Part shown: one piece after another, positions 42,733 to 46,025 of the stretch
Position numbering within the stretch: the first letter of the stretch is position 1
Layout of the letters: every line of letters starts with the position of its first letter
DNA from: Ulvibacter antarcticus
GTDB taxonomy: Bacteria; Bacteroidota; Bacteroidia; Flavobacteriales; Flavobacteriaceae
Direction of reading: 5' to 3'
Assembly: GCF_003688405.1 (NCBI RefSeq)
Contig: NZ_REFC01000011.1
Span: 372,001-436,000, forward strand
Length of the DNA: 64,000 nt
The notes under the pieces: model-generated
The model's database searches: none
Seen by the model: the letters and a program-made list of their open reading frames with translations, nothing else
What the model was told of the DNA's origin: nothing
Translations under genes and position numbers: made by a program

Positions 42733-44409
42733 CTAATTCAGCTTTGCCCAGGAGTCACGAAGTGCGACCGTTCTATTGAAAACTATTTTATCTGGCCCAC
42801 TATCTTTGTCAACGACGAAATATCCTAACCGCTGAAACTGAAATTTATCTTCCGGTTTTGCCTCTTGTAAACTGGGTTCTGCGTATCCGGTAATAACTTG
42901 AAGAGAATCCTGGTTTATAAACTCCATAAAATCCTTGTCCTTATGAGTATCCGGTGAAGGATCGGAGAACAAACGGTCATAAATTCTAACTTCAATTTCT
43001 AATGCTTCCTTAATAGAAACCCAGTGTAATGTACCTTTTACTTTCCGAAGAGAAGCTTCGCTACCACTGCCACTTTTGCTATCAAGGTCGTAGGTACAAT
43101 GTATTTCTGTAATATTTCCTTCGGAATCTTTTACAACACTTTCACCTTTAATAATATAAGCATTCTTCAATCTAACCTCTTTGTCGATAGTAAGTCTGAA
43201 GTATTTTCTATTCGCTTCTTCTTTGAAATCTTCTCTTTCAATATACAATTCTCTAGAAAATGGTACTTTTCGGAAGCCAGCAGCTTCATCTTCCTGATTG
43301 TTCTCTGCATCTAACCATTCTGTTTCACCTTCAGGATAATTGGTAATCACCAATTTCACAGGGTCCAGCACTGCCATTACTCTTGGTGCTATCTTGTTTA
43401 AATCCTCCCGAACATTAAATTCCAAATGTGATACATCTATAAGATTATCACGCTTTCCAACGCCAATACTCTCAACGAAATTCCGAATCGATTCGGGTGT
43501 ATATCCTCTTCTCTTTAAACCGGAAATTGTAGGCATACGAGGATCATCCCAACCGTTAACAACACCTTCTTCTACCAATCTAGCCAGTTTTCGTTTGCTA
43601 ACCACTGTATGACTTAAATTCCTGCGGGCAAATTCACGCTGCTTAGGGCGTAGTTTATCACTATCGTACACTTGGTCCAAAAACCAATCATAAAGCTCTC
43701 TATGAGGCTGAAATTCGAGTGTACAGAACGAGTGAGATACCTGTTCTATGTAATCACTTTCGCCATGGGTCCAATCGTACATTGGGAATATTTTCCAATC
43801 GGTTCCCGTTCGGTGATGATGCTTGTGCAACGTTCTATACATTACTGGATCTCGCATCAACATATTAGGTGAGCTCATATCGATTTTTGCGCGCAAAACA
43901 TGTTCGCCAGCTTCCGATTCACCATTCTTCATTTTCTCCAAAAGCGAGAGGTTTTCTTCAATAGGACGATCGCGAAAAGGGCTTGCGGTTCCTGTGGTTG
44001 TTGGAGTTCCTTTCTGTTGTGCCATAGCTTCGGAAGTTTGAGAATCTACGTAAGCTTTACCTTCTTTTATCAATTGAACAGCCCAATCATACAACTGTTG
44101 GAAATAATCTGAAGCATAACATTCGGTATCCCATTCAAATCCCAGCCATTCAACATCTCTTTTTATTGCATCGACAAATTCCTGTTCTTCCTTTGCCGGA
44201 TTCGTATCGTCAAACCTTAGATTTACAGGAGCATTATACTTTTTTCCTAATCCAAAATTTAGACAGATAGCCGAAGCATGTCCAATATGCAAATAACCAT
44301 TGGGTTCAGGCGGGAATCTAAATCGGAGTTTGTCCTTGGAATGTGTGGAAGATAAGTCGTCTTCAATGATATGCTCAATAAAATTGAGGGATTCTGTTTC
44401 GTTTGCCAT
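42733..44409 (-). CDS. glnS: Glutaminyl-tRNA synthetase
   Basis: A 558-residue class I synthetase. Seen: PPEPNGYLHIGHA at residues 32-44 (HIGH), RFDDTNPAKE, SYCT-less DWTHGESDYIEQVSHS, and the VVSKRKL form of KMSKS. A C-terminal beta-barrel anticodon domain follows. The ATG at 44409 is chosen; an upstream in-frame GTG (44427) lies inside the promoter element. Presence of glnS beside a discriminating gltX means no need for GatCAB-made Gln-tRNA. It is transcribed divergently from folB. Confidence 0.95.
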   Translation of the reverse strand: MANETESLNFIEHIIEDDLSSTHSKDKLRFRFPPEPNGYLHIGHASAICLNFGLGKKYNAPVNLRFDDTNPAKEEQEFVDAIKRDVEWLGFEWDTECYASDYFQQLYDWAVQLIKEGKAYVDSQTSEAMAQQKGTPTTTGTASPFRDRPIEENLSLLEKMKNGESEAGEHVLRAKIDMSSPNMLMRDPVMYRTLHKHHHRTGTDWKIFPMYDWTHGESDYIEQVSHSFCTLEFQPHRELYDWFLDQVYDSDKLRPKQREFARRNLSHTVVSKRKLARLVEEGVVNGWDDPRMPTISGLKRRGYTPESIRNFVESIGVGKRDNLIDVSHLEFNVREDLNKIAPRVMAVLDPVKLVITNYPEGETEWLDAENNQEDEAAGFRKVPFSRELYIEREDFKEEANRKYFRLTIDKEVRLKNAYIIKGESVVKDSEGNITEIHCTYDLDSKSGSGSEASLRKVKGTLHWVSIKEALEIEVRIYDRLFSDPSPDTHKDKDFMEFINQDSLQVITGYAEPSLQEAKPEDKFQFQRLGYFVVDKDSGPDKIVFNRTVALRDSWAKLN

Positions 44410-44426
44410 AGTATAAAAATAATGCA

Positions 44427-44434
44427 CAAAGGTA
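44427..44434 (-). promoter_or_regulatory. Candidate -7 element (TACCTTTG) for glnS
   Basis: An exact TAnnTTTG match on the minus strand, 18-25 bp before the ATG at 44409. It overlaps the in-frame GTG at 44427, which argues against that codon as a start. Confidence 0.5.
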
Positions 44435-44487
44435 ACTATTTCACTAATAACTTAACGCATTAAATACCCCAACTACAACGGGATTCG

Positions 44488-44495
44488 TATCTTTG
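44488..44495 (+). promoter_or_regulatory. Candidate -7 element (TATCTTTG) abutting folB
   Basis: An exact TAnnTTTG match ending 5 bp before the ATG at 44501 and 14 bp before the ATG at 44510. Transcription would begin close to the first ATG, which favours the second ATG or a leaderless message. Confidence 0.45.
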
Positions 44496-44509
44496 CCAAA
44501 ATGCCATTT

Positions 44510-44866
44510 ATGAGTACCATACGTTTAAAAAACATAAAGATCTATGCTTTTCACGGTTGCCTAATTGAGGAAGGTAAAATTGGATCAGATTATTTAGTAA
44601 ATCTTTCAGTAAAAGCCGATCTCACTCATGCTGCAAAGAGTGACGAGTTAAATGATACAGTTGATTATGTTCACCTTCAGAAAATAGTTAAAGTAGAAAT
44701 GGCAAAACGGTCCAAATTACTAGAGCATGTAGGACAGAGAATTATTGACAGCATATTTACTCAACTTGAATTGGTTACCTCTGTAAAAGTAACTGTGGCT
44801 AAGGTCAACCCACCTATTGGAGGCGATGTTGCAGAAGTAAGTGTGACTATGAAAGCCAAACGGTAA
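44510..44866 (+). CDS. folB: Dihydroneopterin aldolase
   Basis: About 118 residues. It converts dihydroneopterin to 6-hydroxymethyl-dihydropterin in folate synthesis. Seen: AFHGCLIEEGKIGSDYLVNL with the catalytic Glu, VDYVHLQKIV, and VAKVNPPIGGDVAEVSV carrying the catalytic Lys near the C-terminus. There are two in-frame ATGs, at 44501 and 44510. The second is preferred because it leaves room for a transcription start. It supplies the folate pathway, and so 10-formyl-THF. Confidence 0.9.
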   Translation: MSTIRLKNIKIYAFHGCLIEEGKIGSDYLVNLSVKADLTHAAKSDELNDTVDYVHLQKIVKVEMAKRSKLLEHVGQRIIDSIFTQLELVTSVKVTVAKVNPPIGGDVAEVSVTMKAKR

Positions 44867-44900
44867 TTGAAATAAAATGCGGTATTTGTATTAATATTTT

Positions 44901-44908
44901 TATATTTG
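44901..44908 (+). promoter_or_regulatory. Candidate -7 element (TATATTTG) for tRNA-Cys
   Basis: An exact TAnnTTTG match about 54 bp before the mature tRNA 5' end. The leader holds the CCTGCCTTCGCAGG hairpin at 44940-44955. Confidence 0.4.
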
Positions 44909-44939
44909 CAGCCATCTTTTGAGCCTCGGTTTAGGAGAT

Positions 44940-44955
44940 TCCTGCCTTCGCAGGA
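44940..44955 (+). repeat. TCCTGC-CTTC-GCAGGA hairpin before tRNA-Cys
   Basis: A 6-bp stem with a 4-base loop just 6 bp before the tRNA 5' end. It shares the core CCTGCYTTCGCAGG with the hairpin ahead of gltX (38182). It may belong to the tRNA precursor leader. Confidence 0.5.
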
Positions 44956-44961
44956 TTTTAA

Positions 44962-45035
44962 GGCATCATGGCCGAGTGGCTAGGCAGAGGTCTGCAAAAC
45001 CTTCTACAGCGGTTCGAATCCGCTTGATGCCTCCA
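44962..45035 (+). tRNA. tRNA-Cys (anticodon GCA)
   Basis: Cloverleaf recognised by eye: 7-bp acceptor stem GGCATCA/TGATGCC, D-arm with GCCGAGTGGCTAGGC, anticodon stem GAGGT/ACCTT around loop CTGCAAA giving anticodon GCA (Cys), T-arm GCGG-TTCGAATC-CGC with the GTTCGAATC box, discriminator T and an encoded CCA. A terminator-like hairpin follows at 45039. The 3' end is repeated in tandem downstream. Confidence 0.95.
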
Positions 45036-45038
45036 AAG

Positions 45039-45067
45039 AACCTTCAGTGAAAACTGAGGGTTTTTTT
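45039..45067 (+). terminator. Terminator after tRNA-Cys (first copy)
   Basis: CCTTCAGT-GAAA-ACTGAGGG stem followed by seven T. The same hairpin is repeated at 45133-45161 as part of the 94-bp unit. Confidence 0.88.
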
Positions 45068-45098
45068 ATGGAGTTGAGTGGTTATTCTACAGTGGTTC

Positions 45099-45114
45099 CC
45101 CCGAGGCGTCGGGG
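45099..45114. repeat. 16-bp G/C palindrome in the second tRNA-end copy
   Basis: CCCCGA-GGCG-TCGGGG, a 6-bp stem with a 4-base loop. It lies where the tRNA T-loop should be. A near-copy with loop GGCT is at 45193-45208. Confidence 0.75.
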
Positions 45115-45132
45115 CGCTTGATGCCTCCAAAG

Positions 45133-45161
45133 AACCTTCAGTGAAAACTGAGGGTTTTTTT
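45133..45161 (+). terminator. Terminator hairpin (second copy)
   Basis: Identical to 45039-45067, shifted by exactly 94 bp as part of the tandem repeat. It may be redundant. Confidence 0.8.
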
Positions 45162-45192
45162 ATGGAGTTGAGTGGTTATTCTACAGTGGTTC

Positions 45193-45208
45193 CCCCGAGG
45201 CTTCGGGG
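45193..45208. repeat. 16-bp G/C palindrome in the third tRNA-end copy
   Basis: CCCCGA-GGCT-TCGGGG; one base differs from 45099-45114 in the loop. The unit stops after CTTGATGCC and the sequence then becomes unrelated. Confidence 0.75.
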
Positions 45209-45250
45209 CGCTTGATGCCGCTACTATAGTTTCAGAAAAAATAAAACAAA

Positions 45251-45967
45251 TTAATGGGATACATCTTCCACCGGTGGAATTGGTTTTTCTAAAGGATGTT
45301 CTTGTCCTGGAATTCGCTCAAGGCCTGCTTTCACTTCATTTGGAAAAATACCCTGTAATAACATTAATACACCAAAACCAGCGATAAGTATACTTACCCA
45401 TTTTTTTGTTTTAAAGATAAAACGAGGCGTCATTTTACTTTTCAATTTTTTAGCTAAAGTTATCTTCAGAAGGTCGGTTGAGAAAAATGTAACTAGGACA
45501 GTAGTAAGAAACCAAAACACCCCGTTATCTGAAGTTGTTAATGCATTTGCCATTATAATTGTTCCTATCCAACCGGCTAATACACCAAAATTTACGAAAT
45601 TGAGGAGAAAACCTTTCAGAAATAAACCTCCTAAATTCTTCTTTACGTTTACAGCGTAATGTTCCCTTGCTATTTTTATAAAAGATTTGGCAGTTCGGAT
45701 ATAAGATATGATTCCATAAGCGATTAAAACAGCACCTCCAAAAATGAGTAATCCTGGATCATCTTTTACTTTTTCAAGAATTTTACTTGTACTATAAAAG
45801 GCAATTAAAATAAAGATTATATCGGCTGCCATAGCCCCAAGATCGAAGAATAATCCTGCTTTAAAACCTTTGGTAATACTGGTTTCTATAAGTGTAAAAA
45901 AGACAGGTCCTATCGCAAACGCCAATAGGAATCCGTAAAATGCCGCATACAACAAACCATCAAACAT
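45251..45967 (-). CDS. LysE family translocator (amino acid exporter-like)
   Basis: A 238-residue inner-membrane protein with about six transmembrane helices. Seen: AAFYGFLLAFAIGPVFFTLIETSI at the N-terminus, the LysE/RhtB-type GPVFF motif, GFKAGLFFDLGAMAADI, and LNFVNFGVLAGWIG. The family exports amino acids or related solutes. The substrate here is unknown. It is convergent with the tRNA-Cys repeat region, its stop lying 30 bp after the truncated copy. Confidence 0.85.
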   Translation of the reverse strand: MFDGLLYAAFYGFLLAFAIGPVFFTLIETSITKGFKAGLFFDLGAMAADIIFILIAFYSTSKILEKVKDDPGLLIFGGAVLIAYGIISYIRTAKSFIKIAREHYAVNVKKNLGGLFLKGFLLNFVNFGVLAGWIGTIIMANALTTSDNGVFWFLTTVLVTFFSTDLLKITLAKKLKSKMTPRFIFKTKKWVSILIAGFGVLMLLQGIFPNEVKAGLERIPGQEHPLEKPIPPVEDVSH

Positions 45968-46025
45968 ATTTCGTAAAAATACAAATTTGTTTTTTCTGAA
46001 AGTGGCTTTCTAACGAATTATCGAA

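Follow-up and report, generated by a model that had tools for sequence, protein, structure and literature searches.

Tandem copies of a tRNA-Cys 3′ end in Ulvibacter antarcticus as probable gene-less members of a GIY-YIG cassette family in Bacteroidota tRNA tails

The tandem array behind the tRNA-Cys gene of Ulvibacter antarcticus is probably a gene-less member of a family of homing-like cassettes that carry a GIY-YIG nuclease gene, lie in the tails of Bacteroidota tRNA genes and are aimed at tRNA arms. What can be read from the sequences is the anatomy of the array, its recurrence at many tRNA genes, arrays that mix gene-less with gene-bearing units, an excess over the rest of the genus, a single empty site and the sorting of nuclease clades by tRNA; from these features we infer that the cassettes cleave and move. 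Whereas the original prediction had described a single locus, the phenomenon is genome-wide and extends across Bacteroidota.

Within the window, by which we mean the whole 64-kb stretch of DNA that was analyzed, ARAGORN called one tRNA, an intact tRNA-Cys(gca) gene, and an Rfam scan of positions 44000–46000 returned nothing above gathering score except a tRNA (RF00005, 44962–45032, 61.6 bits). Two 94-nt copies with a spacing of 94 (45021–45114 and 45115–45208) are 99% identical, with one G/T difference, and are followed by an 11-nt stub (Table 1). Each unit runs from the tRNA 3′ core CGCTTGATGCCTCCA through the terminator and a further 17 nt to TTCTACAGTGGTTC and the palindrome CCCCGAGGCKTCGGGG, so that the copies also include 14 nt from 5′ of the T-loop (the T-stem 5′ strand, with one C>T). 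The original prediction had correctly recognized the 94-bp repeat of the tRNA 3′ end and its terminator, the replacement of the T-loop GAATC by a 16-bp palindrome in both units and the truncation of the second copied core, which lacks the TCCA that follows the first; it had overlooked the 14-nt T-stem copy. Its view that the copies are no longer tRNAs also held, as ARAGORN found a single tRNA and no complete cloverleaf in the copies at 44900–45300. The listed open reading frames (ORFs) include none of at least 80 aa between 44867 and 45250, and the array contains no intact GIY-YIG domain gene of the kind that defines a GIY-YIG homing endonuclease element. A consensus terminator scan of 44800–45400 gave 0 sites, though the fold shows a hairpin with a T-run. 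A candidate D-arm remnant in the unit (GAGTGGTTA) was weak, with 22 of 2000 shuffles equally good, and was discarded. Upstream of the gene, at 44940–44955, stands a second palindrome, TCCTGCCTTCGCAGGA.

Table 1. Features of the tRNA-Cys array in window coordinates
Feature	Position	Strand	Evidence
Intact tRNA-Cys(gca) gene, the putative target; T-loop GAATC at 45016–45020	44962–45035	+	ARAGORN; Rfam RF00005, 61.6 bits
Native-like terminator, a hairpin with a T-run (as also in L005, of the same genus)	45035–45067	+	fold; relatives' flanks
Copy 1 of TTCTACAGTGGTTC, stretch 5′ of T-loop	45085–45098	+	sequence
Palindrome 1, CCCCGAGGCGTCGGGG, replacing T-loop GAATC	45099–45114	+	sequence; palindrome search
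Copied tRNA 3′ core 1, with TCCA	45115–45129	+	sequence; repeat search
Copied terminator	45129–45161	+	sequence; repeat search; fold
Copy 2, stretch 5′ of T-loop	45179–45192	+	sequence
Palindrome 2, CCCCGAGGCTTCGGGG	45193–45208	+	sequence; palindrome search
Truncated copied core 2, CGCTTGATGCC, without TCCA	45209–45219	+	sequence

Chance does not account for the array, because it ranks first among the direct repeats of the window (best 20 of 21 families listed) and because the same pattern stands behind 18 of the 33 tRNA genes found and examined in this genome. The assembly is a draft (3.84 Mb in 18 contigs), which might prompt suspicion of an assembly artefact; given that the two copies differ by one base, that the array lies inside a 1.04-Mb contig and that like arrays are present in many other assemblies, this explanation is barely credible.

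The genome-wide count was based on the last 13 nt of each tRNA recurring, with at most 2 mismatches, in the 2.5 kb that follow the gene, for which we estimate arithmetically a chance expectation of about 1 match in 33. The 18 tRNA genes have 1–5 copies of their own 3′ end (Lys 5; Phe, Asp, His, one Met and one Pro 3 each; the others 1–2), in units of 59–218 bp. Three types of sequence precede the copied core: a palindrome CCCCGA..TCGGGG or TCCCGA..TCGGGA in the T-loop, GAGAAGTTTATGCTGAGCGnAGTCGAAGTGAGCC, and GGATCACAT..TGTAATCC. The window palindrome, allowing 2 mismatches, was found at 18 places in the genome, of which 15 are in tRNA tails and three have no nearby tRNA. Short palindromes recurring in many copies are equally a feature of REP/RAYT systems, and the original prediction had offered a REP-like insertion followed by duplication. 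The recurrence agrees with that proposal; the enzyme does not, since the Y1 transposase domain PF01797 had 0 matches in U. antarcticus (the control search was positive in 5 of 14 genomes) and the gene carried by related units is a GIY-YIG gene. With the palindromes also concentrated in tRNA tails, REP elements moved by a RAYT transposase and located behind tRNAs by happenstance are disfavored as very improbable, and on the absence of the transposase we rejected them.

Three other genomes of the genus had own 3′-end copies at 1/35, 4/31 and 1/25 tRNAs. Copies could have escaped notice at 7 of these tRNAs (5 in G001, 2 in G002), whose flanks were shorter than 500 nt, and the 25 tRNAs counted for G002 leave out 3 of its 28 Rfam tRNA matches. 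Compared with 18/33, these figures make the spread in U. antarcticus look recent. At tRNA-Cys itself, none of the three same-genus genomes has an array, and among 30 tRNA-Cys loci arrays occur within 230 nt behind the gene at 3, namely the window's own, L009 and L022; a further locus (L031) has a second full tRNA-Cys in place of the array. A functional RNA locus, rtT-like or a decoy for processing and maintained for some role of short RNAs that bear a tRNA 3′ end, would fit the terminator and acceptor strand being identical between the copies, but this sparse distribution and the placement of the units behind a strong hairpin with a T-run leave it as little credence as the REP reading.

The case for a nuclease comes from longer units elsewhere. 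Behind tRNA-Phe in several genera, units of about 330–470 bp contain an ORF of about 93 aa, broken in a few. By pattern, a GIY-like ORF was seen at 24 scanned sites, including tRNA-Asp and tRNA-Gly units; the pattern missed some. A first ORF pattern missed 9 of 30 loci, and an HMM search took its place. All five proteins submitted to Pfam were GIY-YIG (E 9e-11 to 4e-19), drawn from Phe, Asp and Gly units and including a tRNA-Asn-linked ORF of U. antarcticus itself. In an alignment of 11 Phe-type proteins, the catalytic residues Y5, Y16, G18, R26 and E64 were invariant in all, and the median dN/dS was 0.18 (16 usable of 55 pairs). The structure model of a Phe-type protein (pLDDT 89.5) places it nearest to UPF0213 (1zg2), Slx1 and the I-TevI catalytic domain, which share the Pfam domain and are its nearest solved folds, although Foldseek gave no match at E 0.001 or better. 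These single-domain GIY-YIG proteins are not known to have tRNA-tail cassettes. A Phe-type query of phages, plasmids and viral contigs had no match. The gene lies between the intact tRNA and the palindrome-spoiled copy, and units occur with or without it.

We measured the linkage of nuclease and tRNA in two ways. For a blind test, PF01541 was searched in 30 genomes of the order, U. antarcticus included, and a small GIY gene was defined as an open frame of ≤160 aa. Outside U. antarcticus, 7 of 33 such genes (6 loci) had an upstream tRNA whose core was copied behind them; six lie 48–67 nt from the tRNA, and the seventh comes second in a tandem pair of such genes. One more gene was accompanied by a tRNA-like repeat of 69 bp at the start of a contig, one had a tRNA and no copy, two lay just upstream of a tRNA, and 22 had no tRNA in the stretch examined, several of them with other direct repeats around. 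UvrC-type GIY loci were near a tRNA in 0 of 13 cases. The second survey is not blind, since it started from tRNA-linked Phe proteins: an alignment search with the Phe type matched 75 of 296 genomes of the class, and an HMM search of 85 loci (four listed rows fall outside these, two from L240, one from L266 and one from G233) gave 105 GIY ORFs or fragments, including 4 duplicates. A same-strand tRNA lay upstream within 1200 nt in 86/105 and within 300 nt in 72/105, an opposite-strand tRNA within 1200 nt in 0/105. The tRNA core was copied after the GIY stop in 53/105, with 6/105 at a stretch edge. Sixteen isoacceptors were represented, most commonly Asn, Val and Met, and many of the Val, Arg, Lys and Asn cases have an intact T-arm, with the palindrome taking the place of the anticodon arm.

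In a quick tree of 104 proteins, made after exclusion of identical rows and rows <60 aa, and from 95 columns, a small number for a tree of this size, the nuclease tracks the tRNA more closely than it tracks the host family. The tRNA label required 25 changes (84 rows, 18 states, those without a label excluded) against a mean of 55.7 and a minimum of 50 in 100 shuffles; the host family required 55 (81 rows) against a mean of 64.7 and a minimum of 60, a count blurred by the lack of correspondence between family codes and NCBI names. The tie between nuclease lineage and target that marks homing elements is seen in the label test, on those few columns.

Gene-bearing and gene-less units also share arrays. 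Among 52 arrays with a GIY unit, 6 have in addition a gene-less unit of <300 bp, where one locus is counted twice and one of the six (L399) is included under an untyped tRNA call. In L441, which belongs to the window's own family, the tRNA-Ser(tga) array has successive units of 176, 177, 373 (GIY), 178 and 177 bp. The gene-less tRNA-Ser(tga) unit of U. antarcticus is homologous to the gene-less unit of L441: behind the terminator the two align with a score of 42, whereas none of 500 shuffles scored above 24. In U. antarcticus, the tRNA-Asn-linked gene is the only GIY gene in a tRNA tail; it stands behind a tRNA-Asn unit and no core copy follows it, and a Phe-type nuclease was not found in the genome at E 1e-14. 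The idea that the Phe units of U. antarcticus are internally deleted GIY genes found no support: 3 of 300 shuffles were as good as the best unit, and because an unrelated tRNA-Ser spacer, used as a control, scored 5 of 300, the Phe spacers are unconvincing as eroded genes.

Among 149 genomes of the family, 7, U. antarcticus included, have the exact palindrome pattern GTTCCCCCGANNNNTCGGGGC, which also occurs in at least 118 stretches of the named genome collection. We take 75 of 80 listed titles, judged by name, to be Bacteroidota, with one unnamed bacterium and 4 from other phyla. Together with one viral stretch, in which no tRNA was found, these stretches yielded 159 sites among the matches listed. 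A same-strand tRNA lies within 3 kb upstream at 86 of these 159, and its core is copied after the palindrome at 74; some of the remaining listed sites have tRNA-like cores, their tRNA lying beyond the stretch examined. At the 74 sites, again among the matches listed, all four T-stem bases are kept in 54, and T-stem pairs are kept in 247 of 296 cases, compared with at most 195 when partners were shuffled. Apart from these, 31 of the 159 listed sites form a separate kind of repeat, GTTCCCCCGAnnnnTCGGGGC followed by C[AG][AG]GC, which among the matches listed is mostly from Bacteroidales-type MAG titles and in most rows without a tRNA.

One locus offers an occupied and an empty allele of the same site. 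Past the copied core of the tRNA-Gly(tcc) unit of U. antarcticus, the flank (TAATAATTAGTAATCAT...) looks like the sequence that follows the tRNA immediately in L312 and L331, and by this likeness the 129-bp unit, which is gene-less, sits between the tRNA and its native flank. For gene-bearing units, a Pro cassette query in 41 genomes of one genus gave no clean empty site, as most matches covered only the tRNA end or a distant part of the query. The original prediction had named att remnants as one possibility, and the tRNA-Gly(tcc) unit does sit in the manner of a site-specific insertion, with a displaced 3′ copy. tRNA 3′ ends are the usual sites of integrases, and elements of tyrosine integrases insert at the T-loop or anticodon arm, leave the tRNA whole and displace a 3′ fragment. 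The cassettes differ in measuring tens to a few hundred bp, in having a GIY-YIG gene or none and in the palindrome of the displaced copy. Remnants of such elements that used the T-loop or anticodon loop and lost their interior are improbable here: the units of U. antarcticus are so short, related units carry a GIY-YIG nuclease, and GIY-YIG was the only gene recognized (by pattern only) in the short units scanned by ORF, with no integrase recognized.

The chief competitor is an origin without any enzyme. tRNA arms, terminators and palindromes might stall replication, template switching might then duplicate the 3′ end with its terminator, and the GIY-YIG genes would be passengers. At Cys, Ala, His and Ser(tga) the native-looking terminator is the proximal one, so local duplication fits these arrays as well as insertion does; near-identical units with fixed periods (at Lys, 104 bp five times) and the lack of a matching nuclease type in U. 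antarcticus point the same way. On the other side are the single orientation of GIY genes behind tRNAs (86/105, against none on the opposite strand), the nuclease clades that track the tRNA and the 18/33 tRNAs in U. antarcticus against 1–4 per genome in the genus. On balance, we consider an enzyme-free origin unlikely, and prefer the GIY-YIG cassette.

A full cassette directly behind a tRNA consists of a 3′ core with terminator, the GIY-YIG gene and a second 3′ part in which a palindrome replaces the T-loop or anticodon arm. As we envisage its spread, the nuclease would cut a tRNA gene that is still unoccupied, within the arm, and the break would be repaired from a copy that has the cassette. 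The cassette would thereby be inserted, the tRNA being rebuilt from the cassette's own 3′ part and remaining whole. The old 3′ end would be displaced downstream, where the palindrome would render it both uncuttable and non-functional. Because the intact tRNA would remain cuttable, tandem arrays could arise through further rounds, or else by repeat exchange, and gene-less units, those of the window included, would be non-autonomous or eroded members.

Among known systems, the rtT/tyrT repeats of Escherichia coli likewise follow a tRNA in tandem, and every repeat includes part of the tRNA 3′ end; they occupy one locus and are not known to have a palindrome or a nuclease gene. GIY-YIG genes beside phage tRNAs are already known. 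The closest system, as described in the accessible parts of two articles, is SegB of T-even phages. This GIY-YIG enzyme is free-standing, lies between tRNA genes and has its target in the tRNA region (PMC2988022); it cuts inside tRNA genes, with the motif RAWTSGAAC at 23 of 83 sites, and tandem amplification depends on it and on recombination proteins (PMC13096335). Judged by these descriptions, both have a small GIY-YIG enzyme beside tRNA genes of many isotypes, and cutting by the cassette enzyme is presumed. SegB is phage-borne and the Bacteroidota cassettes are chromosomal; the copied tRNA 3′ end with a palindrome is particular to the cassettes and is not described for SegB in the accessible text of PMC13096335. 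On the other strand, RAWTSGAAC reads GTTCSAWTY, which is the tRNA T-loop; this reading is our own, the terms 'T-loop' and 'T-arm' being absent from that text. The window has GTTCSAWTY at just two positions, 14058 and 45012; the second is the T-loop of tRNA-Cys, which neither copy retains. As a predictor of arrays the motif was dropped, showing no clear link (9 of 18 tRNAs with arrays, 4 of 15 without).

In the open-access part of the literature we found no paper dealing with GIY-YIG genes in the tails of bacterial tRNA genes, nor any account of chromosomal cassettes that restore a tRNA 3′ end next to a copy spoiled by a palindrome. The accessible text of the 2006 survey of the GIY-YIG superfamily (PMC1564403) contains no 'Bacteroid' and mentions 'tRNA' three times, in passages unrelated to tRNA-tail cassettes. 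We propose, tentatively and with less assurance than the assignment of the window array, that these could be a distinct class of minimal mobile element in Bacteroidota: a catalytic-domain-only GIY-YIG nuclease recognizing one tRNA gene by its arm, within a cassette of about 0.3–0.6 kb that would rebuild the tRNA, disarm the displaced 3′ end by a palindrome and spawn gene-less arrays in up to half of the tRNA genes of a genome. If so, essential tRNA genes would host a widespread minimal selfish element that brings the missing piece along; one explanation would cover the repeats in tRNA tails, the small GIY-YIG genes now seen as orphans and the palindromic repeats of Bacteroidota; SegB-driven tandem amplification in phages would have a chromosomal counterpart; and compact nucleases would be available in clades already sorted by tRNA target.

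Several minor observations concern the surroundings of these elements. Small GIY-YIG genes away from tRNAs (L277 = G000 C3:507500-511500, L278, L231, L238, L258 and L260) are often flanked by direct repeats of 24–79 bp, and by eye L278 has inverted CTTCGACAGGCTCAG-like repeats around its gene; such sites may be a second home of the same type of enzyme. In G156, tRNA-Leu(caa) and tRNA-Arg(tcg) are each closely preceded by a GIY-YIG gene (L263 and L265), and their 5′ ends are repeated over 13 and 22 bp, possibly a 5′-end version of the arrangement. A contig of Candidatus Neomarinimicrobiota (L159) has tRNA-Gly units with a GIY-YIG gene outside Bacteroidota, by transfer or as a misbinned contig. 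On contig20 of Maribacter aquimaris (L180), three tRNA-Asp-like palindrome units lie 1.65 and 3.05 kb apart in a stretch in which no tRNA was found. In the tRNA-His array of U. antarcticus (L070), the proximal terminator loop AAAT becomes TCCCGATGCTTCGGGA in the copies, and the hairpin before the copied core contains TCCCGATAGCTATCGGGA where other arrays have a short loop; palindromes may thus insert into hairpin loops generally. Finally, matches to the tRNA-Pro GIY cassette recur with a period of about 350–360 bp, six times at G477 C24:34653-36610 and five times at G492 C1:181193-183020.
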